NCBI GenBank assembly: GCA_905250025.1
Contig: CAJNOJ010000208.1
Location: 120,455-184,454 of the forward strand
Direction: 5' to 3'
DNA length: 64,000 nucleotides
Source: Adineta ricciae
Taxonomy: Eukaryota; Rotifera; Eurotatoria; Adinetida; Adinetidae
How positions within the stretch are numbered: position 1 is the stretch's first letter; the number at the start of each line of letters is the position of its first letter. Positions 8,491 through 42,007 of the stretch are shown piece by piece. The notes under the pieces are model-generated. The model was not told the origin of the DNA. It saw nothing but the letters and a program-made list of their open reading frames with translations, and did not search any database. The position numbers and the translations under genes are program-made.

Positions 8491-11400
8491 CTATTGTTTT
8501 TTACATAATAATTTATGTTCATATGTTTTCCAGTCCATTACTTGACATTCTTGTGAACAGTAACGCGCTTGTTTACATCGACCACACACATGTGGTGCAT
8601 TCGGTTGATTACAACATCGACACATATTCAGTACTCGCTCAGATTCATTGTGCATCACAATTGATAAGGGATCATCGATTCGGATCAACGGCTTTAGATC
8701 GTATGCGCCCAACCGCAAATACGGATTTACAATACTCATTTTGGTTCCAATCGTGTATGTTGTACTCGTTAGATAGCGTCCTTGGTTATTGGGAAAATTG
8801 TAAATACACATCTGTTCACAATCGTGGCGTTCATCTTCGACCACGAGATGGATTGATGGAGACCAAGACATAGCTTCTTCAATAATAGTTACAGACAGAA
8901 CATATCCTTCATAAACACGATCCTTTGTTGGATCCATTTCTCTCAAAGAAATCTGTTTCAAGCCAACCAATGAGTTGGCTGTTTTTTGTTTAACAGGAGG
9001 TGTTTCAGATCTGAATACCGCAGTGGATTTCGAATCATTTTGCATTTGAAAGGTTCTCACTTGCCATTGACGATGCCGTGTAATGATTTCAATACGATGC
9101 GGATTCGTCAGTCTTTTTTTCAGATCAACACAAGGTGGTGACGCGTTTAGCAAAGTTTCCATGTTAAGCATGTTTTTAATGAGTAATTTACTATTGGACT
9201 TGTAAGGTAAGAAACACGGTAATTGTAATTTTTCTGCTTCTTCACCTTGTCCATATAACTTCTTGATGATATCTATTCTATCATTCTGCGCACTCGGATC
9301 TAAATGACAGCTAGCCATAGCATAATAAGATTCAGGCACTTTGCGATGATCGTTGGGCGCTGCCAGTAAAAATGCTTGATAAGCCTGAATTGCTTCCTTC
9401 ATATCCTTCCCGAGCAGACGTAATGCGACAGCTTTATGATACAATATTTCACAATTACTTGGATCTAGTTCTAAGCCCGTGTTACTATCGTAAAGAGACG
9501 CATCGTATTGTTTCAGCCAACCGTATATTGCGGAACTTAATTCGAAAATAAAAGTCGATTTGGGATATTTTTGTTTACACCGGACGAGAAATTGATCAAT
9601 TGATTCAAGCGAATCCATATTTAATACAACATAACATATTCGAGCATTTTCGTCGAGTAACGAATCATCAGCTTTCGATGTATTGCAACGCCGGAGCACG
9701 CCGTCGACAGTATCACAAGCTTTCTGACGCATTTCAACTGTGAAATATTGGGCAACAATATGTTCAAGGCGATAACATTGCGAAAGTTCTTGTATAAATA
9801 GATTTTCTTCTTGCTCGGACAGTGTTTCGGATTTCGTAAGAACGGATAATGCTCGGCAAAAATGTTCTATAGCATTGTACATCTTCTTGGCTGTTAATGA
9901 ACCACGATTGGCATATTCAATGAATACTTTATAATTAGCGATGTAGGATTGATTAGACGTATTACTGACAGATCCTTTGGATTTAAACGAATCCAACATA
10001 TTTTGAATAACATCCATAATGCGTAACTTCTCTGGAGGATATTCGTCAAGTAGTTTCTGCTTTCCTTGAAAACGCTTTTCAAATTCATTGCGATTTGTTT
10101 TAGCTATAACGTTACCGGATTCGCATGCACGATCAAACCAAACTTTGGCCATTTTTAGATCATTTTTATCAAACAAGATTGTCGCTAAGGTTTGCATGGC
10201 ATTTGGGTCGCCTCCTCTTGCTGCCATTTCTATCAGTTGCTCGGCTTTGTCGAGATTCTTCTCAACGCCAGCACCCTCTAAATACATTACACCTAGATTA
10301 TTCGCTGAGTTTGCACAGCCATGTTTAGCACCACGTTCATACCAGTATGCGGCTGTCGCTAAGTTTTTATGAACACCGACGCCATCCGCATATCGCAATC
10401 CGAGAGAATGCTCAGCTTCTGCAACACCAACATTTGGTAGGTGTGACAGCACTGGATGTTGAGGCGACTGGGCAGCTGCTTGCTCCAATAACTTATAAGA
10501 CAATTGAATGTCTTTTTTAACGCCTAAACCAAGACCAGTTAATCGAGCTAAATTATATAAACCTTCAGCATTGCCTTGACTTGCCGCTTTAGCGAAGTAC
10601 TTGGCAGCTTGCTCATAATCTTGTTTACAATCTATATCTCCATGTTCATATTTATGTCCTTGTAATACATCGCCTGCGGTAGGATTTATTTTTCCAATCA
10701 TGCTATCTGCCAGCCGCGAGCGTTCTAAACTTACGCCCATGTTTTCTTTCATTTCGTTTAATACTTCGGCTCTTGTCTTTGGTTGTAGTCTTGGATCGAG
10801 ATGTTCCTGACGAACTTGACGTCCATATATCTGTCGACTGTCAGTTAACGCAGTTTGTACTTCAACATTAGATGGATCAAGAGCTAATGCTCGTTCAAAG
10901 GATTTAATTGCCTTTTCGTGTTCATTTGAGCTGGCATAAGCTTTGCCAACACGATAATGTGCTTTCCACCATGTTTGCCAAAGATTTCGAGCCTGTTTTG
11001 CGTCCTGTAATACACGGTAACGTAGATCAGCAGGATCCTCGATCTCTGATGCACTCGAAGCGCCAAATTTTAATTCGTACAATGCAAGACGACTAGAAGA
11101 CATGTTTGAATAGAAAATAGCTCGATCATGATCGCTAACACCTGCTAATGTGATTGCTTTGGTAAAGAATGCGATTGCATCAGAATATTTCCGATCTTTA
11201 TGAGCTTGAGTGCCAAGCGAATTCAAGCGTGCAGCTTCCTGAACATTCGCTTCGCTTATTGGTTGATCGCTCCTATTAAACGAGCTATCATCTTTAAGCT
11301 TATCCAATTCAGTATCATCTTCTCCAAATGCAACTAAAATTGTTGATATTCGATTCCAAAGTTGATTAAATTCAACATCAGAAACGGTTTTAGTGGGGTG

Positions 11401-11778
11401 ATGAGCTAATTCATTCCGAATAGTTCGTAATTGCACTAAATGACTATCTTCCACTTGGAGCTGTTGAATTTGTGCATTCGATAATGTTTTTGGTCGGCCA
11501 ATATTCGATAAAAGAGCGGTTAACGTTGTTAGATCCCATTCACTTGAGTTACCACTTTGAACCGAAATCTTTTGAACTGAAGTCAAATGAAATCCTTTAT
11601 TTTTCGCAATGACATTCGTATAATAATTTCCTCCACATGTTGGTGAATCGTCCCATACTTGACCATTGTTGAACAATGAATAGCGCGTTTTAAATAATTG
11701 TCGAAGTGTGCCATATGAATGACCTATCAAACGGTCTAATTTTATATAATTACGAACGTCGTTTGGTATAGTAGACAT
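8491..11778 (-). CDS. HEPN-TPR-Sel1-MYND zinc-finger protein (1095 aa), copy A
   Basis: One long intronless frame. Residues ~40-150 form a DZIP3-type HEPN domain: WDLTTLTALL and the hallmark RN-x4-H at IRNELAHH (~121-127), which is the catalytic motif in HEPN ribonucleases. Residues ~180-310 are TPR repeats (AHKDRKYSDAIAFFTKAI, ALALDPSNVEVQTAL). Residues ~370-560 are Sel1-like repeats (AAKYFAKAASQGNAEGLYNLARL, GVGVHKNLATAAYWYERGA). A further TPR lies near 760-830. The C terminus is a MYND zinc finger (~1053-1093, C-x2-C...C-x2-C spacing with CSQEC and HKLLC). TPR/Sel1 and MYND are protein-interaction modules. The HEPN could make this an RNA-acting or regulatory scaffold, but the substrate is unknown. 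Start ATG at 11778; the next gene is divergent, 1.7 kb away. Confidence 0.85.
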   Translation of the reverse strand: MSTIPNDVRNYIKLDRLIGHSYGTLRQLFKTRYSLFNNGQVWDDSPTCGGNYYTNVIAKNKGFHLTSVQKISVQSGNSSEWDLTTLTALLSNIGRPKTLSNAQIQQLQVEDSHLVQLRTIRNELAHHPTKTVSDVEFNQLWNRISTILVAFGEDDTELDKLKDDSSFNRSDQPISEANVQEAARLNSLGTQAHKDRKYSDAIAFFTKAITLAGVSDHDRAIFYSNMSSSRLALYELKFGASSASEIEDPADLRYRVLQDAKQARNLWQTWWKAHYRVGKAYASSNEHEKAIKSFERALALDPSNVEVQTALTDSRQIYGRQVRQEHLDPRLQPKTRAEVLNEMKENMGVSLERSRLADSMIGKINPTAGDVLQGHKYEHGDIDCKQDYEQAAKYFAKAASQGNAEGLYNLARLTGLGLGVKKDIQLSYKLLEQAAAQSPQHPVLSHLPNVGVAEAEHSLGLRYADGVGVHKNLATAAYWYERGAKHGCANSANNLGVMYLEGAGVEKNLDKAEQLIEMAARGGDPNAMQTLATILFDKNDLKMAKVWFDRACESGNVIAKTNRNEFEKRFQGKQKLLDEYPPEKLRIMDVIQNMLDSFKSKGSVSNTSNQSYIANYKVFIEYANRGSLTAKKMYNAIEHFCRALSVLTKSETLSEQEENLFIQELSQCYRLEHIVAQYFTVEMRQKACDTVDGVLRRCNTSKADDSLLDENARICYVVLNMDSLESIDQFLVRCKQKYPKSTFIFELSSAIYGWLKQYDASLYDSNTGLELDPSNCEILYHKAVALRLLGKDMKEAIQAYQAFLLAAPNDHRKVPESYYAMASCHLDPSAQNDRIDIIKKLYGQGEEAEKLQLPCFLPYKSNSKLLIKNMLNMETLLNASPPCVDLKKRLTNPHRIEIITRHRQWQVRTFQMQNDSKSTAVFRSETPPVKQKTANSLVGLKQISLREMDPTKDRVYEGYVLSVTIIEEAMSWSPSIHLVVEDERHDCEQMCIYNFPNNQGRYLTSTTYTIGTKMSIVNPYLRLGAYDLKPLIRIDDPLSIVMHNESERVLNMCRCCNQPNAPHVCGRCKQARYCSQECQVMDWKTYEHKLLCKKQ

Positions 11779-13460
11779 AGTGAGAGATGATTTATTAATA
11801 TTTGGTGTATGCGCAGTTCGTGTTTTGATTCTATAATGTCACCAATAATCTATAAAAAAGTATATTTTATTTTTGACGCATATGCCTTAGGTTCGATGTT
11901 ATGCTTAAATCTGACCGAAGTCTATAGTTTCGGAGCGTTTAAACTTCTTTTGCAAACTCACTGCTCAAATTAATGCATCAGCTACAATTTCGCGTGATAT
12001 TGTCGAATGAATAACATAATGTTAAAAATGATTTTGTTGTCGCGTAGAATATGATAAGACACGTGAATACGAAAAAAACCCCACTTTCTATACCCAGAAA
12101 AATGTATACATATCTCCTATCAAATATTTCAATCAATAATAATATATTTTCGTCTCTCTTCATTGCTACGTTACCAGTCATATTGTATCCTCGTTTTTTA
12201 TTTTCACTGTGTCTGATTTCTGCAATCGTTTTTGGAATAACACTAACAGTGAATGGGGGTATCGAAAGAAACATTTGACATAAACTCGTCATTTTCGTTC
12301 AAATTAGTACCGAGAAAAAAGGCGATGGTTATAGGTGGAAAAGAAAAGAAAAATGCTTGAAACATCAGCGAGTGTTCCATCGCTGTCTTGTTAAACAAAG
12401 AAAATGCAGTGCGAAACCGACGCATTTTAATGTTGCGATCTTGTTCCATTTGTGAATAATTTCATCGCGAATTATGATGACTTACCACTTGTACACAACT
12501 TAGGATAATAATATTTTTCTATGGTTCATTTTTTCTCAACTAGAATGGTGTGTATCGTAGAAAAATAAGAAAATGGCGTTTTTATTATTATGGAAGTGCA
12601 ACTATTTTCTCTCTCTTTCTTTTACTAGCAAAGCCGTTCTTTTCTACTATACTGTAGCAATCTAAACAGAGTAATCGTGTTTTGTGTTAAAGAACGAGAC
12701 GCATAATCTTAAGAAGAAAACGATTTTGGCACAAGGATTTGTCTAGACTACGAAGAAGTACGACCAATATGAAGAGAGTAATCTTATTGGAGAGGAACGA
12801 ACTTTTTTTTTCTTTAGTTCTGTTTCCTGGAACTATTGAGAGAGCTGCATAAAATGGAAAATAATCACGTGTGGAGTTTTCTCTGATTGAGTATGATTAG
12901 TACCATTTGAACGACACATCAATATATTAGATAATGAATGAATGCATCACAATAGAACTGGGTCAAGCATCGGACCATATTTTCATATCCGTAATAGTTC
13001 AAACTTTAGGAGAGAAATGCAATGGATTTAGGAAAAAAGAGCATGAATTCAATACAGATTCGAAGATATTTTCACAATGCACGTTGGCATTGTAAAACAC
13101 TATAGAACTCATTCATATATATATATTGATCAAAGAGTTGTCCTCACTGCATTAAAGTGCAATATTTTTGTACAACCAGGTCATCGCGTATCTTAGGAAA
13201 CGACACTTGGCAAATATAAGACATATCCGGTCGTAGTCAATTTTCATGTTTGGAAGCTGACTGGTAATAAGAGAAGCAAAAACTGCGAATATTAATAGAA
13301 CAAATATAAGAACTACCTTCCAGTTATATAACTTCTATTGTCTATTTGTTTGGTATTAACTATATCTGTGAAAAACATATCCTTTGTATGCATATTGATC
13401 AAACTCGCAAATCTATCCGTAGTCAAATATTATAGCAGCGTCTGATATTCTCACAAAATA
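11779..13460. other. Divergent intergenic region between MYND and ART genes, copy A
   Basis: AT-rich sequence, collinear with 19095-20853 of copy B with several indels. Copy B has about 60 extra bases near 20545-20605. Short overlapping frames at 11978-12449 lie on both strands and are not conserved in length between copies, so no gene is called. Confidence 0.5.
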
Positions 13461-15457
13461 ATGACTGAAGAAAACGTCGCACATCGGGTCATCGTTCGAC
13501 TGATCGGATGTGCAACGAACAGCGGCAATGTCAAGAGCGGTCTTGTTCGAATTTCCAATGCTGAACGACTACAACGTGAAAATAAGACTCTACGAAAAGA
13601 ACTTAAATTCTGGATACCTTTACATTCTCAAAACAATGAAATCTGCATCGAAATGTTGGAACGTACTCGTATCGAATCCAAAGAATTTGATGATCTGACT
13701 TCATGTGTCCAATACATTCGTTCATCTATTCAAAAACGCGTGGTTCTCATCCTCTACAACCATTATGCAAGTAATAGAAAAATTGCCAACGAATTTACCA
13801 AATTCTCTCAAATCATCGCAATCTATCGTTGTATCTCTGAAGACTGTTTCAGCAAATGGTATACATGTCGAATCTTTGAAAATCAACCATTGATCGGGCA
13901 GTTTTTATCTCGACGATTGCTTCATACGCCAATCAAACAACTCGATGACGCTAGCCAGCTTCTACTCATGCAGATTTGTCTAACAGAACTGATTATTAAT
14001 TTACCTCGAACAAACGAAGCTAAGCAAGATTTCTTGAAGTTTTGTCGAGAGACATACAGAACGAATTCGACCTATATGTCCAAAATCGAAGAATTCGAAC
14101 GAACTTACGATGAACCGCATGCTATTCAATGGTATTCAGCAGCGAGTAGTTTCGTTTGCCAAATCGTTAGCAAAACATGTGCACTGATGGATTTCGCTGC
14201 ATTTTTTCGAATTCGTTTTATTCTCCGCGATTTATACACTCAATTGCAGCAACTTCATGAACAACAGTTAGCGAATCTTCTTCGTCGAGACTTAATCGTC
14301 TATCGAGGCAAGAAGTTGTCAAAAGAAGAAGTGAACCGCCTGAAAATCAAAGGAGAATTGTTCGTCACGAGAAATTTTCTCTCAACATCAATACAAGAAG
14401 ATGTCGCCGGTATGTTTTCCGGAGAAGGTACTCGAAATGAAGATGAAATATCTGTTCTAATCTGCATGCACATCGAACAGACTGAAGTTCAAGAGAAGCC
14501 AATTGCTTTTATCGGTGAAATGAGTTTCATGCAGTTCGAAGATGAAGTCATGCTACCTATGGGTCTAGTGTTCCGCACGGAATCGTACGAAGAAATCAAC
14601 GACGACGAAGCTTATGCAATAAAAATCAATATGGTGCGTGGAAATGGTGAACGACAAATCGAAAAAGAGCAAGGTCGATATCGACTTTTAACTGAAACGG
14701 GTCAAACTGGTATGATCAATGGTATGGCTGCTCTGTTGAAATCGATGAAGAATAATGAATATGTAGAAGAATTTAATCAACTGATATCTAACAGTGAACT
14801 TGCTGAACAACTTCGGCTGGACTCTTCAGAAGTAAGAAATGTTGATGAAACAGATAAAACCGATGTGTTTAACGATTGTTTATGTTGTAGAAAAGTTCTC
14901 TGAGTTCATTGAACAATGTGTTTCTCGCAATGAAGCAACATCCTATTTATCTAACTCTCACGTTTATTGGTATTATTATTGTAATTGCTGCCATTGTCAC
15001 GCCACTGGTGATTCTTCTTCCTTCGAATTCAATTACACCTATTGCAGAAATCAACGTAACTGAACCATGCATCATCAATACTTTTAAAGACACCCATGTG
15101 CTTGAAAAATACCAAGCGTCACGTATTAATATAAATTGCTCTCTTATTCCCACTAATATGGTTCTTATATTAAATGTGGATCGTACACACAATGAAAAGA
15201 ATCTATCAAATACTCACTTTCCTCCAAATCAATTAGTTCACATAAAATGGGACTACTTAGAGAATCCGCCAACGCTTACCTATACTTGGACTTTCGAGCG
15301 ACAAGAAGATGTCGTTGACACCATGTTCTATGGTTCTGTCTTGGTGCGGTTTTTATACGAACAGAACGGCACCCGTCTTTCAAATAATGATAGTTGGGAA
15401 TTCTGGTTTCAAATCACGGATGGGGCAAATCGTACGATGTCTGGTTCTTTCGACTAG
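13461..15457 (+). CDS. Membrane-anchored mono-ADP-ribosyltransferase with extracellular domain, copy A
   Basis: Two exons, 13461-14831 and 14891-15457, separated by a 59-nt GT-AG intron in phase 0; the spliced product is 645 aa. Residues ~1-250 are an N-terminal helical/Rossmann-like region (VVLILYNHYASN). Residues ~275-400 are an R-S-E class ADP-ribosyltransferase that transfers ADP-ribose from NAD+: Arg282 in VYRG, Ser308-Thr-Ser310 in FLSTS, and the ExE motif at Glu360-Asp-Glu362. The ExE form is typical of arginine-directed enzymes. Residues ~477-500 form a single hydrophobic helix. The following ~145 residues carry six N-x-S/T sequons (NVT, NCS, NLS, NGT, NDS, NRT) and two cysteines, as expected outside the cell. 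Basic residues before the helix suggest the catalytic domain is cytosolic. If the intron is retained, a stop at 14901 gives a 480-aa soluble form. Polyadenylation signal near 15510. Confidence 0.85.
14832..14890 (+). other. 59-nt intron linking ART and transmembrane/ectodomain exons, copy A
   Basis: It starts GTAAGA and ends in a T-rich stretch with TTGTAG. Exon 1 ends exactly after codon 457 (GAA), and exon 2 opens as AAA AGT TCT in the frame of the downstream membrane domain. The same boundaries and length occur in copy B (22225-22283). At 59 nt it is not a multiple of three, so retention changes the C terminus. Confidence 0.85.
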
Positions 15458-15632
15458 TCCAAGAGCAAGGCAAAACTATATATACTATCTTTACGGATAA
15501 AATTTGATGAATAAAAAACTGAACATCACTTGACTTTTTCTCTCTCTCTTATGAGAAAAGGAATTCTATGGCAATTTATTTCAAAATCTAATAAAAGGAT
15601 CGCAGTGTTCACAAAGAAAAGTCTTTTTTGCA

Positions 15633-15956
15633 TTACTTTTTGCTCGAGCCTTGTGAACGTTTTACTAACTCATCACGTTTCTTTTCTAACGTCTTGATTT
15701 GTTCCTCAATACGTTTCTGTTCTTGTTCGATGCTATCCGATTGCTTTTCCAAGTCAGTATGTCGATCACGTAATTGTGCCAAAAGTTCGTCATTTAATTT
15801 ACGAAAATAGGCGTTTTCAAACGCTTGTTCACGTTCGGAAAACTTATCATGAGCAGCATTGATTGAGCCAGGTGCTGGATCAGTACTTGTTAATCTTGTC
15901 GTGAGGAAAAATTGAGATGTTGGTCGTCGTAACAACTGCGCACATGTACGAAGCAT
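15633..15956 (-). CDS. ATPIF1: Mitochondrial F1-ATPase inhibitor IF1 homologue, copy A
   Basis: A 107-residue protein. The N terminus (MLRTCAQLLRRPTSQFFLTTR) is basic and hydroxylated, as in a mitochondrial targeting peptide. It is followed by the IF1 signature FSEREQAFENAYFRKLNDELLAQL, matching the inhibitory helix of animal IF1 (F-x-x-RE-x-A-x-E-x-x-YFR). A long charged coiled coil (LEKQSDSIEQEQKRIEEQIKTLEKKRDEL) would mediate dimerisation. IF1 blocks ATP hydrolysis by the ATP synthase when the membrane potential falls. The gene is intronless and convergent with the ART gene, 175 bp away. Confidence 0.88.
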   Translation of the reverse strand: MLRTCAQLLRRPTSQFFLTTRLTSTDPAPGSINAAHDKFSEREQAFENAYFRKLNDELLAQLRDRHTDLEKQSDSIEQEQKRIEEQIKTLEKKRDELVKRSQGSSKK

Positions 15957-16562
15957 TTTTATTTGTACCGAAATGAAAATTTTCTTATAACGTAAAATAG
16001 AGAGAGAGGGAGGGAGAGAGTATGTTTTTTGCGCAGAAGAAAAATCCGTTTATCTGACGAAGAACACGAAAAAAAAACGCACATACTTCTTTCTTTCGTT
16101 TTTTTTCTTTCACTTCGAATCGACATTGCAAGAATAAGACGCAGATGTGCGATTGACTGCAATGCACTTACTGTAGAACGAAAGAAATTTTATCTGGGAC
16201 GTTTCGTTCGGTGATAAAAACGTCTTAGAGATTCGCCGATGCACAGAGAAATATATAGACCAACTTACTGTTCTGCTGAAACGACATGCGAACAGCATTG
16301 CAATATTGTAGTGGTAGTACCCACCCTTTCCTTGGTACCAGGTACAGATAACAGAAGCATTAGACGAGAAAAACGCGTGATTGATAATTATATTGCTTTG
16401 TTAAGCCGTATGATATGAAAAAATTGATTGCTGCCTTTGACGTCATCACAATGATCGAGAGGATTAAACTCACTAATCATACTGAATGCCTTTAAAAGAC
16501 TGAGTATTTTTGTGCATTTCAATTCCAAAATCATTTGTAAGAAAACAGAGCGAGATAAAATA
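15957..16562. promoter_or_regulatory. Shared divergent upstream region of IF1 and PHB depolymerase, copy A
   Basis: 600 bp separating divergently transcribed genes and collinear with 23342-23938. It contains a short GAGAGA/GGGAGA microsatellite at about 16000-16020, shorter in copy B. No core promoter motif could be fixed. Frames that extend the IF1 ORF upstream in copy B are not conserved in copy A. Confidence 0.4.
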
Positions 16563-17015
16563 ATGCAACGGGGTATCATTACTCTCTTTGTTCTCATCAC
16601 TGTTCCTTTGGTTACTGCAAAGTCGCCACGTACAGATGTAACTGTGTCTGGGCTTTCATCGGGTGCTGCAATGGCTACTCAACTCCATTTCGCATTCTCT
16701 AAAGACATCAGCGGTGCCGGTGTCTTAGCTGGTCCTCCCTATTATTGTGGTGGCAACGGAATGACAGTTGCCCTCTGCATGAGTGGACCTGCATTATACG
16801 TGTCGGTTTCTGTTCTTCAATCGAAAATTAATTCATATAAATCAGCTGGTAGCATCGATGATCCTGCCAACATTGCCAACGATCCTGTGTACGTTTTTTC
16901 GGGTAAATATGATACCGTTGCATATCCTGGTGTCGTCAAACTCAACAAGGATCTCTATGCACGATTCAATGCCAATGTGAAAACAAATTTCGACATGGCA
17001 GCTCACCATGGTTTT
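16563..17015 (+). CDS. Secreted PHB depolymerase-like esterase, 5' part (copy A, cut by gap)
   Basis: N-terminal ~151 residues of the protein that is complete at 23939-25222. It has the signal peptide ([19 protein letters not shown]), the lipase box GLSSG (Ser32), the YDTVAYP aspartate and the start of the AHHGF histidine motif. Coding stops at the N. The following bases belong to another gene on the opposite strand, so the frame apparently continuing to 17117 is an artefact. The missing middle (matching 24392-24624) and the 3' end found at 48597-49198 complete this copy. Confidence 0.85.
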
Positions 17016-17016
17016 N
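17016..17016. other. Single-N assembly gap joining two unrelated gene interiors
   Basis: Left of the N is the plus-strand PHB depolymerase at its HHGF motif. Right of it is the minus-strand MYND-gene interior (equivalent to 9701 in copy A). Neither gene continues across. Confidence 0.9.
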
Positions 17017-19094
17017 CCGTCGACAGTATCACAAGCTTTCTGACGCATTTCAACTGTGAAATATTGGGCAACAATATGTTCAAGGCGATAACATTGCGAA
17101 AGTTCTTGTATAAATAGATTTTCTTCTTGCTCGGACAATGTTTCGGATTTCATAAGAACGGATAATGCTCGGCAAAAATGTTCTATAGCATTGTACATCT
17201 TCTTGGCTGTTAATGAGCCACGATTGGCATATTCAATGAATACTTTATAATTAGCGATGTAGGATTGATTAGACGTATTACTGACAGATCCTTTGGATTT
17301 AAACGAATCCAATATATTCTGAATAACATCCATAATGCGTAACTTCTCTGGAGGATATTCGTCAAGTAGTTTCTGCTTTCCTTGAAGACGCTTTTCAAAT
17401 TCATTGCGATTTGTTTGAGCTAAAACATTACCGGATTCGCATGCACGATCAAACCAAATTTTTGCCATTTTTAGATCATTTTTATCAAACAAGATTGTCG
17501 CTAAGGTTTGCATGGCATTTGGGTCACCTCCTCTTGCTGCCATTTCTATCAGTTGCTCGGCTTTGTCGAGATTCTTCTCAACGCCAGCACCCTCTAAATA
17601 CATTACACCCAGATTATTCGCTGAGTTTGCACAGCCATGTTTAGCACCACGTTCATACCAGTATGCGGCTGTCGCTAAGTTTTTATGAACACCTACGCCA
17701 TCCGCATATCGCAATCCGAGAGAATGCTCAGCTTCTGCAACACCAACATTTGGAAGGTGTGGCAGTACTGGATGTTGAGGCGACTGGGCAGCTGCTTGCT
17801 CCAATAACTTATAAGATAATTGAATGTCTTTTTTAACGCCTAAACCAAGACCAGTTAATCGAGCTAAATTATATAAACCTTCAGCATTGCCTTGACTTGC
17901 CGCTTTAGCGAAGTACTTGGCAGCTTGCTCATAATCTTGTTTACAATCTATATCTCCATGTTCATATTTATGTCCTTGCAATACATCGCCTGCGGTAGGA
18001 TTTATTTTTCCAATCCTGCTATCTGCCAGCCGCGAACGTTCTAAACTTACGCCCATGTTTTCTTTCATTTCGTTTAATACTTCGGCTCTTGTCTTTGGCT
18101 GTAGTCTTGGATCGAGATGTTCATGACGAACTTGACGCGCATGTATCTGTCGACTGTCAGTTAACGCAGTTTGTACTTCAACATTGGATGGATCAAGAGC
18201 TGATGCTCGTTCAAAGGATTTAATTGCCTTTTCGTGTTCGTTTGAGCTGGCATAAGCTTTGCCAACACGATAATGCGCTTTCCACCATGTTTGCCATAGA
18301 TTTCGAGCCTGTTTCGCGTCCTGTAATACACGGTAACGTAGATCAGCAGGATTCTCGATCTCTGATATACTCGAAGCGCCAGATTTTAATTCGTACAATG
18401 CGAGACGACTAGAAGACATGTTCGAATAGAAAATAGCTCGATCATGATCGCTAACACCTGCTAATATAATTGCTTTGGTAAAGAATGCGATTGCATCGGA
18501 ATATTTCCGATCTTTATGAGCTCGGGTGCCAAGCGAATTCAGCCGTGAAGCTTCCTGAACATTCGCTTCATTTATTGGTTGATCGCTTCTATCATACGAG
18601 CTATCGTCTTTAAGCTTATCCAATTCAGTATCATCTTCTCCGAATGCAACTAAAATTGTTGATATTCGATTCCAAAGTTGATTAAATTCAACATCAGAAA
18701 CGGTTTTAGTGGCGTGATGAGCTAATTCATTCCGAATAGTTCGTAATTGTGCTAAATGATTATCTTCCATCTGGAGCTGTTGAATTTGTGCATTCGATAA
18801 TGTTTTTGGTCGGTTAATATTCGATAAAAGAGCGATTAACGTTGTTAGATCCCATTCACTTGAGTTACTACTTTGAACCGAAATCTTTTGAACTGAAGTC
18901 AAATGAAATCCTTTATTTTTCGCAATGACATTCGCATAATAATTCCCTCCACATGTTGGTGAATCATCCCATACTTGACCATTGTTGAACAATGAATAGC
19001 GCGTTTTAAACAGTTGTCGAAGTGTGCCATATGAATGACCTATCAAACGGTCTAATTTTATATAATTACGAACGTCGTTTGGTATGGTAGGCAT
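17017..19094 (-). CDS. HEPN-TPR-Sel1-MYND protein, N-terminal 692 residues (copy B, cut by gap)
   Basis: Collinear with the complete copy from its start ATG (19094) through the HEPN domain, TPRs and Sel1 repeats, ending at the N. The RN-x4-H HEPN motif (IRNELAHH) and the repeat register are intact. Substitutions are scattered and conservative, with no stops. The C-terminal MYND end of this copy is most likely the fragment at 7261-7922. Confidence 0.85.
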
Positions 19095-20853
19095 AGTGAG
19101 AAATAACCTATTAATATTTGGTATATAATCAGTTCGTGTTTTGATTCTATAATGTCGCCAATAACCTATAAAAAGTATATTTTTTTAACGCATATGCCTT
19201 AGTTTCGATGTTATGCTCAAGTCTCACTGAAGTCTTTTCGGAGCGTGTAAACTTCTTTTGCAAACTCACTGCTCAAATCAATGTATTAGCTTCAAACATC
19301 AACTCCTCAGATATAGTTCGCGTGATACTATCGAATGAATAACATAGTGCTAAAAATGAGAGAATTTTGTTATCGCGTAGAATATGATAAAACACGTGAA
19401 TACGAAAAAAACCCTACTTTATATACCCACAAAAATGCATACATATCTCCTATTAAATATTTCAATCAATAATGATATATTTTCGTCTCTTTTCATTGCT
19501 ACGTTATCAGTCATATATTGTATCCTCGTTTTTTTGTCACGGTGGCTGATTTCTGCAATCGTTTTTTGAATAACACTAGTAGTGTATGGAAGAATCGAAA
19601 GAAACATTTGACATAAACTCGTCATTTTCCTTCAAACTAGTACCGAGAAAAAGGCGACGGCTATAGATGGAAAAGAAAAGAAAAATGCTCAAAACATCAG
19701 CTAGTGTTCTATCGCTGTCTTGTTAAACGAAGAAACTGTAGTGCGAAACCGACGCATTTTAATGTAAGCATAAATTATTCATATACGCTTGCGATTTTGT
19801 CCCGTTTGTGAATAATTTCATCGCGAATTATGATGACTTGCCACTTGTACACAACTTAGGACAATAATATTTTCCTACGTTTTTTTTGTCAACTAGAATG
19901 GTGTGTATCGTAGAAAAATAAGAAAATGGCGTTTCTATTATTATGAAAGTGCAACTATCTTTTTTCTCTTTCTTTTACTAGCAAAACTGTTATTTTCTAT
20001 TTCGTGTTTTGTGTTAAAGAACGAGACGCATAATCTGAAGAAAAGAACGATTTTGAGACAAGGATTTGTCTAGACTACGAAGAAGTACGACCAATATGTG
20101 GCGAGTAATCTTATTGAAGAGGAACAAACTTTTTTTTCTTTAGTTCTGTTTCCTGAAACTATCGAGAGAGCTGCATAAAACGATAAATAACCACGTGTGG
20201 AGTTTTCTCTGATTGAATATGATTAGTAACATTTGAACGACACATCAATATATTAGATAATGAAGGAATACATCACAATAGAAAATGGGTCAAGCATCGG
20301 ACCATGTTTTCATATCCGTAATGGTTCAAACTTTAGGAGAGAAATGCAATGAATTTAGGAAAAAAGAACATGAATTCAATACAGATTTGAAGAGATATTT
20401 TCACAATGCACGCTGGCATTGTAAAATACTATAGAACTCATTTATATTTATTGATCAAAGAGTTGTCCTCATTTCATTAAAGTGCAATATTTTTGTACAA
20501 CCAAGTCATCGCGTATCTTAAGGAAACGGCACTTGGCAAATATAAGCCCAATCTATTCATAGACAATCTGTTCATGTATTCTCGAATAAAACTCTTCTGT
20601 AATGATAACAACACATATCCGATCGTAGTCAATTTTCATTTTTGGTAAGCTGACTGGTTATAAGAGAAGCAAACACTGCGAATATTAATAAAACAAATAT
20701 AAGGACTACCTTCCAGTCGTATAACTTCTATTGTCTATTTGCTTGGTATTAACTTCAGCTGTGAAAAACATATCCTTTGTATGCATATTAATCAAACTCG
20801 CAAATCTATTCGTAGTCAAATATTATAGCAGCGTCTAGTATTCTCACAAAATA
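19095..20853. other. Divergent intergenic region between MYND and ART genes, copy B
   Basis: Counterpart of 11779-13460. A segment at about 20545-20605 is absent from copy A. No gene is seen. Confidence 0.5.
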
Positions 20854-22850
20854 ATGACTGAAGAAAACGTCGCACATCGGGTCATCGTTCGACTGATCGG
20901 ACGTGCAACGAACAGCAGCAATGTCAAGAGCGGTCTTGTTCGAATTTCAAATGCAGAACGACTACAACGTGAAAATAAAACTCTACGAAAAGAGCTTAAA
21001 TTCTGGATACCTTTACATTCTCAAAACAATGAAATCTGCATCGAAATGTTGGAACGTACTCGTATCGAATCCAAAGAATTTGATGATCTGACTTCATGTG
21101 TCCAATACATTCGTTCATCTATTCGAAAACGTGTGGTTCTCATCCTCTACCACCATTATGCAAGTAATAAAAAAATTGCCAACGAATTTACCAAATTCTC
21201 TCAGATCATCGCAATCTATCGTTGTATTTCTGAAGACTGTTTCAACAAATGGTATACATGTCGAATCTTTGAAAATCAACCATTGATCGGGCAGTTTTTA
21301 TCTCGACGATTGCTTCATACGCCAATCAAACAACTCGATGATGCTAGCCAGCTTCTACTCATGCAGATTTGTCTAACAGAATTGATTCTTAATTTACCTC
21401 GAACAAACGAAGCTAAACAAGATTTCTTGAAGTTTTGTCGAGAGACATACAGAACGAATTCTACTTATATGTCCAAAATCGAAGAATTCGAACGAACTTA
21501 CGATGAACCGCATGCTATTCAATGGTATTCAGCAGCGAGTAGTTTTGTTTGCCAAATCGTCAGTAAAACATGTGCACTGATGGATTTCACTGCATTTTTT
21601 CGGATTCGTTTTATTCTCCGCGATTTATACACTCAATTGCAGCAACTTCATGAACAACAGTTAGCGAATCTTCTTCGTCGAGACTTAATCGTCTATCGAG
21701 GGAAGAAGTTGTCCAAAGAAGAAGTGAACCGTCTGAAAATCAAAGGAGAATTGTTCGTCACGAGAAATTTTCTCTCAACATCAACACAAGAAGACGTCGC
21801 TGGCATGTTTTCCGGAGAAGGTACTCGAAATGAAGATGAAATATCTGTTCTAATCTGCATGTACATCGAACAGACTGAAGTTCAAGAGAAGCCAATTGCT
21901 TTCATCAGTGAAATGAGTTTCATGCAATTCGAAGATGAAGTCATGCTACCTATGGGTCTAGTGTTCCGCACGGAATCGTACGAAGAAATCAACGACAACG
22001 AAGCTTATGCAATAAAAATCAACATGGTGCGTGGAAATGGTGAACGACACATCGAAAAAGAGCAAGGTCGATATCGACTTTTAACTGAAACAGGTCAAAC
22101 TGGTATGATCAATGGAATGGCTGCTTTATTGAAATCGATGAAAAATAATGAATATGTAGAAGAATTCAATCAACTGATATCTAACAGTGAACTTGCTGAA
22201 CAACTTCGGGTGGACTCTTCAGAAGTAAGAAATATTGATGAAACAGATAAAAACGATGTGTTTAACGATTGTTTATGTTGTAGAAAAGTTCTCTGAGTTC
22301 ATTGAACAATATATTTCTCGCAATGAAGCAACATCCTATTTATATAACTCTCACGTTTATTGGTATTATTATTGTAATTGCTGCCATTGTCACGCCACTG
22401 GTAATTCTTCTTCCTTCGAATTCAAGTACACCTATTGCAGAAATCAACGTAACTGAACCATGTATCATCACTACTTTTAAAGCTACCTATGCGCGTGAAA
22501 AATACCAAGTGTCACGTATTAATATCAATTGTTCTCTTATTCCCACTAATATGGTTCTTATGTTAAATGTGGATCGTACACACAATGAAAAGAATCTATC
22601 AAATAGTCATTTCCCTCCGAATCAATTAGTTCACATAAAATGCGACTACTTGGAGAAGCCGCCAACTCTTACCTATATTTGGACCTTCGAGCGACAAGAA
22701 GATGTCGTTGACACTATGTACTATGGTTCCGTCTTGGTGCAGTTTTCATACGAACAGAACGGCACCCGTCTTTCAAATAATGATAGTTGGAAATTCTGGT
22801 TTCAAATCACGGGTGGGGCAAATCGTACGATATCTGGCTCTTTCGACTAG
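20854..22850 (+). CDS. Membrane-anchored mono-ADP-ribosyltransferase with extracellular domain, copy B
   Basis: Exons 20854-22224 and 22284-22850 around a 59-nt intron at 22225-22283; 645 aa when spliced. All catalytic motifs (VYRG, FLSTS, E-D-E), the transmembrane helix and all six glycosylation sequons of the ectodomain are conserved with copy A. Substitutions elsewhere are scattered, and the ectodomain looks somewhat more divergent than the catalytic part (for example TFKDTHVLEKYQA versus TFKATYAREKYQV). Conservation of frame, intron and sequons in both copies argues that the spliced product is real. Confidence 0.85.
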
Positions 22851-23017
22851 TTCAAGAGCAAGGCAAAACTATAGTATCTATACGGATAAAATTTGATGAA
22901 TAAAAAACTGAACATCACTTGACTTTTTCTCTCTTATGAGAAAAGGAATTCTATGGTAATTTATTTCAAAATCTAATAAAAGGATCGTAGTGTTCACAAA
23001 GAAAAGTCTTTTCTGTA

Positions 23018-23341
23018 TTATTTTTTGCTCGAGCCTTGTGAACGTTTTACCAACTCATCACGTTTCTTTTCTAACTTCTTGATTTGTTCCTCAACACGTT
23101 TCTGTTCTTGTTCGATGTTATCCGATTGTTTTTCCAAGTCAGTGTGTCGATCACGTAATTGTGCCAAAAGTTCGTCATTCAATTTACGAAAATAAGCGTT
23201 TTCAAACGCTTGTTCACGTTCGGAAAACTTATCATGAGCAGCATTGATTGAACCAGGTGTTGGATCAGTGCTTGTTAATCTTGTCGTGAGGAAAAATTGA
23301 GACGTTGGTCGTCGTAACAACTGCGCACATGTACGAAGCAT
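23018..23341 (-). CDS. ATPIF1: Mitochondrial F1-ATPase inhibitor IF1 homologue, copy B
   Basis: 107 residues with the same targeting peptide, REQAFENAYFRK inhibitory helix and coiled coil as copy A, and a handful of conservative changes (N for S in the coiled coil, K for T). The frame can be extended upstream to 23545 but only in this copy and through microsatellite sequence, so the ATG at 23341 is chosen. Convergent with the ART gene. Confidence 0.88.
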   Translation of the reverse strand: MLRTCAQLLRRPTSQFFLTTRLTSTDPTPGSINAAHDKFSEREQAFENAYFRKLNDELLAQLRDRHTDLEKQSDNIEQEQKRVEEQIKKLEKKRDELVKRSQGSSKK

Positions 23342-23938
23342 TTTTATTTGTACCGAAATGAAAATTTTCTTATAACGTAAAAGAGAGAGAGGGAGAGTAT
23401 GTTTTTTGCGCAGAAGAAAAATCCGTTTATCTGACGAAGAACACGAAAAAACAAATGCACATACTTCTTTCTTTCGTTTTTTTTCTTTCACTTCGAATCG
23501 ACATTGCAAGAATAAGACACAGATGTGCGATTGACTGCAATGCACTTACTGTAGAACGAAAGAAGTTTTATCTGGGACGTTTCGTTCGATGATAAAAACG
23601 TCTTAGAGGTTTGCCGATGCACAGAGAAATATATAGACCAACTTACTGTTCTGCTGAAACAACATGCGAACAGTACTGCAATATTTTAGTGGTAGTACCC
23701 ACCCCTTCCTTGGTACCGGGTACAGATAACAGAAGCATTAGACGAGAAAACGCGTGATTGAGAATTATATTGCTTTGTTAAGCCGTATGATATGAAAAAT
23801 TGATTGCTGCCTTTGACGTCATCACAATGATCGAGAGGATTAAACTCACTAATCATAGTGGATGCCTTTAAAAGATTCAGTATTTTTGTGCATTTCAATT
23901 CCAAAATCATTTGTAAGAAAACAGAGCGAGATAGAATA

Positions 23939-25222
23939 ATGCAACGGGGTATCATTACTCTCTTTGTTCTCATCACTGTTCCTTTGGTTGCTGCAAAGTC
24001 GCCACGTACAGATGTAACTGTGTCTGGGCTTTCATCAGGTGCTGCAATGGCTACTCAACTCCATTTCGCATTCTCTAAAGACATCAGCGGTGCCGGTGTT
24101 TTAGCTGGTCCTCCCTATTATTGTGGTGGTAATGGAATGACAGTTGCCCTCTGCATGAGTGGACCTGCACTATACGTGTCGGTTTCTGTTCTTCAATCGA
24201 AAATTAATTCATATAAATCAGCTGGTAGCATCGATGATCCTGCCAACATTGCCAACGATCCTGTGTACGTTTTTTCGGGTAAATATGATACTGTTGCCTA
24301 TCCCGGTGTCGTCAAACTCAACAAGGATCTCTATGCGCGATTCAATGCCAATGTGAAAACAAATTTCGATATGGCAGCTCACCATGGTTTTCCAACAGAT
24401 AACTATGGTACAAAATGCAGTGCACTCAACAAAGAAAGTTTCATCAATGATTGGTAAGTAGGAAAATGACACAAGGTGAGACAATATACTGCTTTGTGTT
24501 TAGCCAATTCAACATGGCCTACGATGTATTGAATCATCTTTTCGGTGGAGATCTAATTAAACCTGAATTTGGTTTGAAATCTTCTATGGCTGGTCAAATG
24601 CTTGTCTTTAGTCAAGATGCATTCATCAATCCTCCATCGTTTTTATCAACAGGAGAAAACGCTAGTTCAGCGATAACACAATGGCTTGGCAAAAGCATGG
24701 CTATCCACTATCCAACTAGTTGGGAGCGATCGGTCAAAGGTTTCTTCAATCAAGCCATGCCGGATGTAACCATTCCATTGAAAGAGAAAACGCAAGCACG
24801 GAGCTTATCCGCTAGTCTCGACGAACAAGGTTTCGTTTATTTTCCATCTGCTTGTACTAATGGTGAAAAATGTCCAATTCATGTTGCTTTACACGGATGT
24901 CAACAAGGTTTCTATTTTTCGAACTTCCAGTGAATCCGTTCATTGTCTTTTTTCTTTTTTTCATATAGGAAAATACTACGTCGATGATGTCTTTGCTGTC
25001 AAAGCAGGTTATCTCGAAGTAGCTGAACTCAACAACATCATTGTTATTTTCCCGCAAGTTGCCCGCTCACTTGCTCTTCCCACAAATCCAATGGGTTGTT
25101 GGGATTGGTGGGGATATAGTTCCCTCTATTATGCTACTCAAGGTGCCCCGCAAATGGCTGCTGTCAAGCAAATGATCGACACTGTTCGCATGATTAACAA
25201 CGCTTTTGTTGCTGCTAAATAA
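23939..25222 (+). CDS. Secreted PHB depolymerase-like esterase, complete (copy B)
   Basis: Three exons, 23939-24453, 24504-24907 and 24969-25222, with 50-nt and 61-nt introns; 390 aa. An N-terminal signal peptide is followed almost at once by the lipase box GLSSG (Ser32), then Asp117 in GKYDTVAYP and His148/149 in AAHHGFPTD. The C-terminal half has [20 protein letters not shown] and [11 protein letters not shown]. This order, with the nucleophile near the N terminus and the oxyanion-side HGC motif late, is the circularly permuted layout of fungal secreted PHB depolymerases. Such enzymes cleave poly(3-hydroxybutyrate) esters outside the cell. A ~60-residue insert (about residues 195-255) is less familiar. 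The family is not typical of animals, so horizontal acquisition followed by intron gain is inferred. Polyadenylation signal at 25259. Confidence 0.85.
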
Positions 25223-25463
25223 TATAGCTCGATGTTTTATTTCTGAGAATAACTCATTCAATAAACACTTGCAGTAACCTTTCATACGCGACCTAAACTA
25301 GTCATCTCAATTTCATTTAGTCATGTAAAACAAAACTGATAAAAGATTTTATAATGTTATTTATCTTAAGCAAACACGTGTAAAAGATAGATCTTAGTGA
25401 GAAGAGAAAATATGATCTTGCCATGCGCTGGATATTCAGACACTTCGAGAATCATTACAAAGA

Positions 25464-26348
25464 ATGATTAAACTGCATCGGACATATCCTGTATGGCTTC
25501 ATTTACTTCATCTAACCTACCATACAGGTTTGTTTCTATACCAGGCAGTTGGTTTTACTACTTCATTTCAATCATCGACGAACTCGATCAGTACAGATGA
25601 AGTCAACGGACCCGGATGGCGTTTTCGTTATGTGACAACATGGATCCTATCTGTACTATCCATATACATCATTGCAGCTCTCCTCTATGATATACTTCTT
25701 ATTCTGCGCGGCCTGAACGATACAATAATCAAACAATTTCGAATTCATCTCGATCGATTTTATTGTTTAATGTTTTCAACTAGTGTAGGCATGGGATTTT
25801 TCTTTCATTTATTCTTCTTCTTTAACTGCATCAATAATCATCACTGTCCGAAGTATACAGATTCACTATTATTTATTCATTTGATGCCGTTCTGGTATGG
25901 CCTAGCTGAATTTTTATTTGTCCCCCATGATACAAAACGTGACATAAAGACCACACCGATTCTTGTTTTCATCTTCTGCTTCATTTACTTCATTAACTAT
26001 TGGTTGTTCGTAGCGCAAACGCACGGACATCATCCATACGGCGATCCATGGCCAATCTGGCAGTGGTTTGTGTACTTTTGTTTTCCATTAGGAATGTTAG
26101 CATTACGACTAATGGCAATCATACGTCGGCGATTGTTTTACAAGAGAGGATTACGTTCACCATGCATTTATCCACAAAATGAACTCTATGCGAATCCTTG
26201 GATAGGATGGCATTTCGATTATTCTCGCTTGGATCAATCCGAAATGCAACCAATCGACTGGAAAGCAATTGGCGCGATGAATGGAATATTGTTGACTCTG
26301 ATATCTATTTGGAATCTTGTTTATCTAGTTTCATCTGGATCAAAGTGA
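25464..26348 (+). CDS. AIG1/ADTRP-like multi-pass membrane hydrolase, copy B
   Basis: 294 residues, intronless, with about six hydrophobic helices. The segment WRFRYVTTWILSVLSIYIIAALLYD corresponds to the threonine-bearing helix of the FAR-17a/AIG1 family. HLMPFWYGLAEFLFVPHD matches the family's H...P...E...H region. In animals AIG1 and ADTRP are threonine hydrolases of fatty-acid esters of hydroxy fatty acids. The catalytic Thr/His assignment here is by analogy and not certain. A cytosolic RRRLFYKRGLRS loop lies before the last helix. The gene starts 240 bp after the PHB depolymerase on the same strand. Polyadenylation signal near 26358. Confidence 0.6.
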   Translation: MIKLHRTYPVWLHLLHLTYHTGLFLYQAVGFTTSFQSSTNSISTDEVNGPGWRFRYVTTWILSVLSIYIIAALLYDILLILRGLNDTIIKQFRIHLDRFYCLMFSTSVGMGFFFHLFFFFNCINNHHCPKYTDSLLFIHLMPFWYGLAEFLFVPHDTKRDIKTTPILVFIFCFIYFINYWLFVAQTHGHHPYGDPWPIWQWFVYFCFPLGMLALRLMAIIRRRLFYKRGLRSPCIYPQNELYANPWIGWHFDYSRLDQSEMQPIDWKAIGAMNGILLTLISIWNLVYLVSSGSK

Positions 26349-26575
26349 AAGCATCACAATAAAAAATAACACAGGTTGCATAACATATTTTTGCTTCATT
26401 CCTAATGAAAGTGCGCCATCTATTATCTACATCTTACAGTGATGTAAATACCGAACCAATAGAATATTTTTTAGTTGAGACATCAGAAATTTTCCTTTTC
26501 AATTTTAATTACAAGATTGTATGCATTTCTGTCTTTCGTGAAGCATCTTTATTCGTAGTCTTTGTTTACATACAA

Positions 26576-27397
26576 ATGGCAACGGCTGTCCTAGATTTTC
26601 CCTTGAATCATGATGATGAAGAACCCAATCACATTATATTTTGGCTGGACCAAGGTATTGGCCTTCCCACAGAATATATACATTTGAAAAAGGCGTTCGG
26701 TAGTAACACTGATCCGCGTCATGAAACTTTCACTATGCTCAACGATAAAGATTACGACGATTTACTTGATTCTAAAGAACCTGTTACCGTGCTATTCGGA
26801 GGTGTACAATTCCTTTTACAAGCATTTGTCGACGAAAATGCTTGCTTGGAAGCCTTTGAAGTAAATCAAAACAAACGAATCTTCTTTATCACATCTGGTT
26901 CGCTCGGTGAGAAGGCCGTTCCGAGAATTATTGAAAGCTACCGCAATGTCTTTACCGATCCTATTACTAGTAAACCATACCATTCGGTCTATATTTTTTG
27001 TGGCATTATTGATAATCATGTGGATTGGGCAATGGAATATTATGAATACATTCAAATGTTTGACTTCGACAGAGATTTACTACAACGAATGACACATGAT
27101 ATTGCTGATTACTTTTTTGAACGAGGTCGACGGATACTCGAAGACACTGAACCAAAAGATCCTCTTAAATACTTATATTGGGCAAAGCGACTCTATCATC
27201 GATTCGACAAGTTAGAAGCAGATATTGATACAGATAATCCTCGACCAGTGAGACCGAGCAAAGACACACGAAAAATTATAGATTTCATCGAAAAAGTTGA
27301 ATCAGAGAAGTGTGCAAACAATGTTGAAGAAAACGCTCCAACCAATGATGGTGGCGACGATTCTGATACGCCATACGGTGAATCATCTGATTACTGA
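26576..27397 (+). CDS. Small receiver-like (Rossmann-type) rotifer protein, copy B
   Basis: 273 residues from the ATG at 26576, chosen because the upstream extension is not open in copy A. The core alternates hydrophobic strands and helices: HIIFWLDQGIG, VTVLFGG, KRIFFITSGSLGEKAVPRI, HSVYIFCG and VDWAMEYYEYIQMFDFDRDLLQRM. From memory of bdelloid proteins this pattern is the N-terminal module often fused to ADP-ribosyltransferase or TPR domains. Here it stands alone with an acidic tail. No catalytic motif is visible, so no function is assigned. TIR- or receiver-like folding is a guess from the strand pattern. Confidence 0.65.
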   Translation: MATAVLDFPLNHDDEEPNHIIFWLDQGIGLPTEYIHLKKAFGSNTDPRHETFTMLNDKDYDDLLDSKEPVTVLFGGVQFLLQAFVDENACLEAFEVNQNKRIFFITSGSLGEKAVPRIIESYRNVFTDPITSKPYHSVYIFCGIIDNHVDWAMEYYEYIQMFDFDRDLLQRMTHDIADYFFERGRRILEDTEPKDPLKYLYWAKRLYHRFDKLEADIDTDNPRPVRPSKDTRKIIDFIEKVESEKCANNVEENAPTNDGGDDSDTPYGESSDY

Positions 27398-27701
27398 TTC
27401 TTTCTTGTCTTAGATTGGATTGTTTTGCCAAGTGTTACAATAAGATTTTTCATAGCTTTCACGTTTCTATGTTGGAACGAGTTCTTTTATCACATCAACA
27501 TTGAGATTCCATGGAGTACAAGAGAGATATGAGACAACTTAAAAAATTCACATACGCTAGAAATACATGTCAGTAATCATTAATTGAATGGATATTTATG
27601 CGTACCTTTGGCATAGATTTTCTATAGATAATCGGATCAACTACGATTATTTACTTGACAGAGAAAAAGTAAGGTAAATTAATCAAAATTGTTGTATTAC
27701 T

Positions 27702-28365
27702 ATGTCGCATCATACTTTAACAGAAAATTATACTACTGTTGAGAAGACAAAATGCCATGAATTCAGGGTCTATACAACAACTCATGGATTACTACGTGTC
27801 GTTCGTAATGACAGCTTGCTTAATCGCATCTACTAGTCAATTGGTTCGATAGCTTTTGCATCGCTCATGACTTATTTCACAATTGAAAAGCACATATCGA
27901 TGCTGAGTGGCCACAACGTTTTCCTGCCTTCGCTCTATGCAATACTGGCACTTTGCATTTGAATAAATTCATTAGATCATTCACAAATTTTGCCAAGCCA
28001 TCAAATATTACTAACATAATCAATTCGACGGTCATATCTCCTGAACAAATACACTAGGTCGGACCTTTTGTCTTTGAACAATTCTTCTACTTGCTTTCAT
28101 CGATGTTCCATATACAGTCGCAGATTTCCTTCCAGTCATCACAAAAAAATAGGGTCACTATTACATACTCAATGGTAAAATAAAGAGTGTAAGTGCTGAT
28201 AGTATTCGTTATAAAGGCAGTGCAAGTATTCCGATTCTAGTACATGATAACGCTCAAGTTCCATTGGTAGGCACGTGTGGTTTTGATTATATCCCTGGGC
28301 AAAAACGTATATTCATTCCATCTCCCTATACAATATGCAGTGAAAATGTTGAAGTTTGGATGTAA
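27702..28365 (+). pseudogene. Decayed gene of unknown family, copy B
   Basis: It begins with an ATG frame (MSHHTLTENYTTVEKTKCHEF...) that hits stops within ~45 codons. It continues with a hydrophobic remnant (SLMTYFTIEKH, LPSLYAILALCI) and ends in a clean frame at 28153-28365 (VPLVGTCGFDYIPGQKRIF..., stop TAA). The second copy at 51707-52224 keeps recognisable pieces but has different deletions. It is interpreted as an old gene now broken in both copies. The family is not recognised, and some gaps could be unrecognised introns. Confidence 0.45.
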
Positions 28366-28844
28366 CTCATGTTCGATACTATTCGAATTTTGATTATCAA
28401 TACTTGTAAAGTCTTTGTCTGAAATTCGAATTGTTGTAAAACAAACCGCATTTAAAATTTATATTTGGTGTACTTCAGTAGTGTCCACCGTGGATACGTA
28501 AATTCGGCTTATTGGGACTCTCGCAAGATTATTTTACCAAACAGAACAGATGCTTTTGTTGCTCCAGTATACAATCGATCTAACCTTTGTCCACGTAACG
28601 CAATAACAACGTTCACCTCAACGCTGGTGGATTCGAAGGACAATCTTCGTATCAAACGTAAAATTTATTGTTAAAAAATCTTCACTAATAACACTGATGG
28701 AATGGTAATGTCTCGGTGTAAAAAAAACTAGTCGAACAATTAACGATTCCTTATCCTTTCGATTGATACGGTATCAACGTCTTCAATTCGATCAAAAATC
28801 AAACAATATCTACTCCGATAAGAGCGTCAAAAAAGTTTCAGTAC
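28366..28844. other. Intergenic, nothing recognised
   Basis: A 69-codon plus-strand frame at 28465-28674 is not preserved in the other copy (52309-52521 carries stops), so no gene is called. Confidence 0.4.
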
Positions 28845-30819: not shown

Positions 30820-30882
30820 ATTTTTTACAAGGTTCGAATAAAATCAGTTCGGAGGATTTTTTATTTTCATTCTCAAGATTAT

Positions 30883-41867: not shown

Positions 41868-42007
41868 CGTTGACTAATGTAAATTGTGACTTTTTTCTAC
41901 CTTTTATATTTTATATCTTTTCTCTTTTCAGATATCAACTTTTCATACAAAATCGAACATGCTTTGGTCTCTGTGTACAGATAGCTAAAATAAATGTTAT
42001 ATTAAAA

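Follow-up and report, generated by a model that had tools for sequence, protein, structure and literature searches.

Do two adjacent open reading frames in the genome of the bdelloid rotifer Adineta ricciae encode two proteins, or a single protein with an ADP-ribosyltransferase (ART) inside the cell and a glycosylated domain outside it? The frames, 13461–14903 (480 residues) and 14930–15457 (175 residues) on the forward strand, lie in a 64,000-nucleotide (nt) window, the whole stretch of DNA analyzed here, which forms the end of contig CAJNOJ010000208.1 (C208, bases 120455–184454) in a 130.5-Mb genome assembly; the G + C content of the window is 36.4%, and 35.6% is given for the species (PMC5916493). 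We consider it probable, on the strength of the sequence analysis that follows, that both frames belong to one gene for a single-pass type II membrane protein built as cytosolic ART, helix and ectodomain. An N-terminal region and an R-S-ExE arginine-type mono-ART would face the cytosol, residues 478–500 would span the membrane, and an ectodomain of ~145 residues, predicted to be N-glycosylated, beta-rich and likely disulfide-bonded, would lie outside.

The probable intron join and the two copies

Deleting 14832–14890, a 59-nt phase-0 interval with GT-AG borders (GTAAGA...TTGTAG), converts the two frames into a single frame of 646 codons (645 residues and a stop). The initial annotation had proposed that this intron fuses the ART frame to a helix and ectodomain exactly in frame in both copies of the gene, and this is what we find: removal of 22225–22283 from the second copy (copy B, 20854–22850) gives an equal layout of 645 residues and a stop. 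In copy A the downstream frame opens precisely at the acceptor, position 14890, and the stop just upstream of it is the TAG of the acceptor itself. The features of copy A are as follows.

13461–14831, + strand: exon 1, N-terminal region and R-S-ExE ART domain, residues 1–457 (open frame; Pfam PF03496)
14304–14306, + strand: Arg282 in a YRG motif, catalytic in this class (codon checked)
14382–14384, + strand: catalytic Ser308 in an LSTS motif (codon checked)
14538–14546, + strand: ExE motif, Glu360-Asp-Glu362 (codons checked)
14832–14890, + strand: intron, 59 nt, phase 0 (splice signals, shuffles, and phase-0 donors near the ART exon end of two relatives)
14891–15457, + strand: exon 2, juxtamembrane segment, helix, ectodomain and stop, 188 residues (frame open from the acceptor)
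14951–15019, + strand: predicted transmembrane helix, residues 478–500 (hydropathy; low-confidence structure model)
15020–15454, + strand: putative ectodomain, residues 501–645, with six sequons, Cys517 and Cys540 (sequon test; homologues in secreted-looking proteins)
15510–15515, + strand: AATAAA (sequence scan)

In-frame fusion alone is cheap and weak evidence, given that eight GT-AG pairs of 30 to 160 nt are able to fuse the two frames. Among the eight, a GTAAG donor occurs only in those that use 14832, and the T-rich one of the two acceptors available to that donor is 14890. When 14770–14929 was subjected to 2000 dinucleotide shuffles, a GTAAG...YAG in-frame fusion of 45 to 90 nt arose in three and any GT...YAG fusion in 140; for comparison, the majority of introns in four bdelloid genomes, A. 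ricciae among them, are 30 to 100 bp long (PMC5916493). The AATAAA at 15510–15515 lies ~50 nt 3′ of the ectodomain stop, with others at 14618 (inside the ART exon) and 15590; none is found between the ART frame and the exon 2 frame, an interval short enough to make this weak evidence. That the frames are fused by mere chance was rejected despite the eight possible pairs, as both the strong donor and a paralogous locus described below speak against it.

Copies A and B occupy blocks at 9701–17015 and 17017–24391 that meet at a single N at 17016 (identities of 92.3 and 95.6%). All five single Ns in the window (2713, 7924, 17016, 48596 and 54002) are exact edges of repeated blocks that are ~3 to 8% diverged, and the pattern of abutting blocks is found again upstream at C208:115145 (95.1% identity); the median divergence of homologous copies in this species is 4.55% (PMC5916493). 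The two copies are thus probably alleles strung in tandem by the assembler rather than two genes, and their reading as tandem genes was rejected on the single-N junctions. Because they are probably alleles, they count once, and the weight that the initial annotation had given to two independent copies falls away. The features concerned are:

17016, no strand: single N at which the copy A block ends and the copy B block begins (block comparison)
20854–22224, + strand: exon 1 of copy B, a probable allele (97% amino acid identity to copy A; PF03496 at 23.0 bits, just below the cut-off)
22225–22283, + strand: intron of copy B (2 of 59 sites differ from copy A)
22284–22850, + strand: exon 2 of copy B (89% amino acid identity to copy A)

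Between the copies, the ART exon has a nonsynonymous divergence (dN) of 0.013 and a synonymous divergence (dS) of 0.114; exon 2 as a whole has a dN of 0.048 and a dS of 0.126, and its ectodomain part 0.056 and 0.162, respectively. Both exons look constrained, the outside part less than the ART exon. Other apparent duplications in the window, such as 24625–41999 against 48597–63441, are likewise suspect as alleles strung in tandem.

The predicted enzyme, helix and ectodomain

The R-S-ExE motif is the mark of arginine-specific ARTs, and the R-S-E class to which it belongs is cholera-toxin-like. PF03496 (ADPrib_exo_Tox) matches residues 276–390 of copy A with an E-value of 2.1e-5 and 24.4 bits (cut-off, 23.4), and it is the only family reported for the ART exon in Pfam at E ≤ 1, with no PARP family match. 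R282, S308, E360 and E362 are invariant in five of five aligned ART sequences, the profile of which matches the solved arginine ART Vis in a search of solved structures (E = 3.4e-5). The ART exon gave no match at E ≤ 1 in a sequence search against the same structures, and no relative was found in viral contigs. We read the enzyme as a probable R-S-ExE arginine-type mono-ADP-ribosyltransferase.

Topology was judged from the mean hydropathy of 19-residue segments (19-mers), and signal peptides were sought by eye and by hydropathy. The sole strong hydrophobic segment spans residues ~478–500 (19-mer mean of 3.12). Over the first 60 residues the maximum reaches only 0.77 in copy A, 0.38 in copy B and 0.83 in the paralogue, so that none of the three has a signal-peptide-like N terminus by this measure; every 19-mer above 1.6 in copies A and B begins at residues 473–488, leaving no hydrophobic C-terminal glycosylphosphatidylinositol (GPI) signal, and a KDEL-type C-terminal motif is absent from both copies and the paralogue. 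The predicted ectodomain (residues 501–645, ~145 residues) holds Cys517, Cys540 and six sequons common to both copies, copy B alone having a seventh at residue 503. Six sequons exceed the shuffle expectation in copy A (2.4; p = 0.014), copy B (2.3; p = 0.009) and the paralogue (1.6; p = 0.0012); the cytosolic parts of copies A and B contain two and three, respectively, with no excess over shuffling. The single helix, the enzyme motif, the N-in/C-out order and the six conserved sequons in the ectodomain, all anticipated in the initial annotation, are borne out by these analyses, and the order is repeated at the paralogue with a different intron layout.

Relatives of the two parts and a proposed origin of the join

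When the genome was searched with the ART exon, the first matches beyond the window copies were C208:103198 (36% identity; E = 2e-73), C208:117579 (34%; 4e-73) and C186:7623 (34%; 3e-68), after which the next lies at 3e-34. The first of these is paralogue L016 (C208:103.1–105.5 kb), ~31 kb upstream as assembled, with an ART that is 32 to 36% identical to that of the window gene. Its exon 1 ends at a GTGAGT donor and is followed by two short exons, the second hydrophobic, and then by an ectodomain exon, making four exons; the introns (8578–8732, 8838–8885 and 9001–9148 in locus coordinates) all have GT-AG junctions and are in frame. The spliced product is open over 690 residues and reads ART, hydrophobic segment and ectodomain with six sequons; we take this predicted product as independent support for the order. 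In the third relative (L019, on C186), the ART is followed by a 54-nt phase-0 intron (GTAAGT...TTTAG) and then by a 58-residue soluble tail that lacks a helix. The window gene, L016 and L019 therefore all have a phase-0 donor close to where the ART exon ends, and different 3′ exons after it. At both the window locus and L016, an AATAAA lies 30 to 55 nt past the ectodomain stop and none lies between the parts.

Exon 2 found seven places in the genome at E ≤ 1, including the two window copies, and two of the seven sit just downstream of the C208 ART relatives. The paralogue ectodomain retrieved homologues on C538 (3e-38), C162 (3e-30 and 1e-28), the window copies (2e-11 and 1e-9), C7 (1e-7), C534 (1e-4) and C246 (2e-4), with 51% identity to C538, 44 to 45% to C162 and 29 to 32% to the window ectodomain; weaker homologues lie on C23, C293 and C19. 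The two copies on C162 (L021 and L022) begin with a signal-peptide-like sequence, followed by a PAN domain (23.0 and 16.4 bits in the two copies, the cut-off being 21.4), a Ser/Thr-rich linker and then the shared C-terminal domain. The C7 homologue has a signal-peptide-like start and a Cys-rich part, that on C534 has one hydrophobic and one Ser/Thr-rich frame nearby, that on C246 lies near Cys-rich frames, and that on C538 is a lone 126-residue frame without readable context. Wherever it can be read, the context of these homologues looks extracellular. No Pfam family exceeds its cut-off in the ectodomain or in the homologues tested; exon 2 has no match among solved structures at E ≤ 10 in a sequence search, and the single match of an ectodomain profile to the same structures (E = 1.5) was taken as chance.

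Aligned to that of the paralogue, the window ectodomain shares two sequon positions and one Cys, the other Cys being one column off. In a tree of 10 ectodomains the window copies sit on a long branch (2.84), and their clade with the paralogue ectodomain is supported at 67/77; the clade is neither shown nor rejected by this tree, and one capture of the domain or two would both fit. We infer that a phase-0 intron was the site at which a soluble ART captured 3′ exons encoding a domain of secreted proteins, and that the Met residues before the hydrophobic segments may be a trace of the captured gene, its signal sequence having become the helix. Just upstream of the ART gene lies a further feature, which suggests a lost tandem copy of an ART-ectodomain gene:

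13130–13217, + strand: degenerate remnant of the 3′ end of an upstream paralogue-type ectodomain (78% identical to C208:105410–105499; protein match with two stops)

The ART complement of the genome appears very large, with at least 93 matches to the ART exon and at least 150 to PF01129. We examined 1.5 kb past the ART in 20 of the 88 more distant matches. Of these, 19 continue for 197 to 500 residues into tails that are TPR-like by eye and contain no 19-mer above 1.5, and so no predicted helix; four of the 19 are still open where the examined sequence ends. The remaining one (L066) stops after 16 residues; 1.3 kb farther downstream, a 19-mer of 2.17 lies in a frame that nothing ties to the ART. 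Among the close relatives and these 20, the helix-ectodomain layout is seen at two loci only, the window gene and L016. In Adineta vaga, the ADP-ribosylation term is enriched among genes over-expressed upon desiccation and radiation (PMC10809525) and among genes under-expressed in spaceflight (PMC12220480).

Elsewhere in the window, the proteins encoded at 26405–27397 and 50556–51377 match no Pfam family at E ≤ 0.01 and resemble, by eye, the N-terminal region of bdelloid ARTs. On the reverse strand, 8491–11778 and 16842–19094 each encode a protein with HEPN_DZIP3, TPR and Sel1 matches, to which the first adds a MYND finger; the second frame crosses the N at 17016. An indoleamine 2,3-dioxygenase gene (PF01231; E = 1e-104) occupies 29506–30819, with a partial second copy at 53336–54031 the frame of which crosses the N at 54002. 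Finally, 47162–48687 is an array that includes the N at 48596, with the reference stretch registered 13 times at 93-nt spacing.

Competing explanations and known systems

Several findings weigh against a single transmembrane ART. PF03496 exceeds its cut-off in only one of four sequences (copy B, 23.0 bits; L016, 20.3 bits; the C186 relative, no ART family at E ≤ 1), and the structure model of the ART exon, made from the two window copies only, has a predicted local distance difference test (pLDDT) score of 32.7 and no strands. Structure prediction of the ectodomain, which the initial annotation had advised, gave no more than an outline, a helix (H18–42 of exon 2) and then strands, with low confidence (pLDDT of 50.4, again from the two window copies only) and no Foldseek match to the PDB at E ≤ 0.001 (0 of 1141), those among the matches listed forming a mixed set in which beta proteins prevail. 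The hydrophobic segment of L016 is weak (19-mer of 1.84, with five windows above 1.6); the L016 junctions were selected by visual inspection, with frame and presence in both alleles deciding the last acceptor; and in the assembled sequence of L018, the allele at 117.5 kb, the ectodomain is split between two overlapping frames, which reflects either an assembly error or a broken allele. Lastly, a Met just before the hydrophobic segment at both loci is what an independent gene, equipped with a signal sequence, would be expected to show.

One alternative accepts the fusion and differs as to where the protein resides: as a sub-case of the transmembrane ART, with overlapping odds, it could be a PARP16-like sensor or anchor of the endoplasmic reticulum (ER) rather than a cell-surface receptor, which we hold to be possible though doubtful. 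In human PARP16 the catalytic domain faces the cytosol and a C-terminal helix sits in the ER (PMC3372510, PMC10789625), and the sequons and Cys pair would suit any secretory compartment; on the other hand, the lumenal tail of PARP16 is described as only ~22 residues (300–322; PMC3372510), compared with ~145 residues here that have secreted-looking homologues, and the KDEL-type ending is missing from copy A, copy B and the paralogue.

Under the main rival explanation, there are two cistrons: the acceptor at 14890 would receive a trans-spliced leader, exon 2 would encode its own membrane or secreted protein from the ATG at 14930, and the upstream transcript would yield a soluble 480-residue ART. 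Trans-spliced leaders are in use in bdelloids (PMC1925144), a Met comes before the hydrophobic segment at both loci (the ATG at 14930; exon 3 of the paralogue), and homologues of the ectodomain occur in proteins without an ART. Against this stand the good donor at 14832 and the phase-0 donors near the ART exon end of two relatives, a frame that can be kept over every junction at both loci, the lack of an AATAAA between the frames (in short intervals), and an out-of-frame ATG upstream of 14930 that copy A, but not copy B, carries in the would-be 5′ untranslated region. An unconfirmed leader sequence had no match in the assembly, a result that carries no weight either way. We favor the fusion because of the donors, the kept frames and the position of the AATAAA only after the ectodomain stop rather than between the parts, and we regard two cistrons as improbable.

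A regulated switch between a membrane-bound and a soluble enzyme, by intron retention, would be compatible with a single transmembrane ART and had been raised in the initial annotation. Retention does give the 480-residue frame ending at 14903, and only 2 of the 59 intron sites differ between the copies; a regulated change of location is not supported, in that both differences alter a residue of the retained-intron frame, retained introns commonly run into an early stop, and the putative introns of the paralogue are also little diverged between alleles (6 of 154, 0 of 47 and 10 of 148 sites, with two borders one base off). We judge such a switch very improbable. That the entire protein, ART included, is an ecto-enzyme is scarcely credible: human ARTCs are GPI-anchored or secreted (PMC10789625), but the rotifer protein has neither a signal-peptide-like N terminus nor a hydrophobic C terminus, and 19 of the 20 sampled relatives run into long non-hydrophobic tails.

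For the transmembrane ART, we infer that the ectodomain would hold the enzyme in the plasma or a secretory membrane and bind something there, and that arginines of membrane-near cytosolic targets would be ADP-ribosylated. If so, ADP-ribosylation would be placed, and perhaps controlled, in a novel manner, by a cytosolic R-S-E ART that a helix joins to a folded domain on the outside; the gene is a construct on which junction, topology and activity can be tested. Regulation of catalysis by outside binding, as in a true receptor, would be a further step. A receptor ADP-ribosyltransferase, in which a ligand on the glycosylated ectodomain controls cytosolic arginine ADP-ribosylation, arisen by exon capture in bdelloids and kept at two linked loci, strikes us as rather unlikely; were it true, it would define a receptor-enzyme class parallel to the receptor kinases.

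Receptor kinases and receptor guanylate cyclases consist of an ectodomain, a helix and a cytosolic enzyme, the ectodomain coming first; the rotifer protein has the reverse order and another enzyme. The human ARTC family belongs to the R-S-E class and has its catalytic domain outside, with a signal peptide and a GPI signal. Membrane association is a likeness to GPI-anchored ARTC1–4, in a family that also has a secreted member (PMC10789625); the rotifer protein differs in showing neither signal by 19-mer hydropathy. Within the same genome, the homologous ART domain recurs in the at least 93 matches, nearly all of those sampled lacking the helix. A search of the open-license literature by title and start of abstract found no paper on such an architecture for bdelloids, rotifers or Adineta. 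The statement in the initial annotation that no described enzyme has this order was too strong, as PARP16/ARTD15, a human tail-anchored mono-ART of the ER, has an N-side cytosolic ART, one C-terminal helix and a lumenal C terminus (PMC3372510), the order that hydropathy predicts for the rotifer protein, and is described as unique among human PARPs in its known membrane association (PMC10789625). It differs in belonging to the PARP (ARTD) class, not R-S-E, and in having a short tail in place of an ectodomain (PMC3372510). The rotifer protein would thus combine the R-S-E class with a PARP16-like topology and a real ectodomain.
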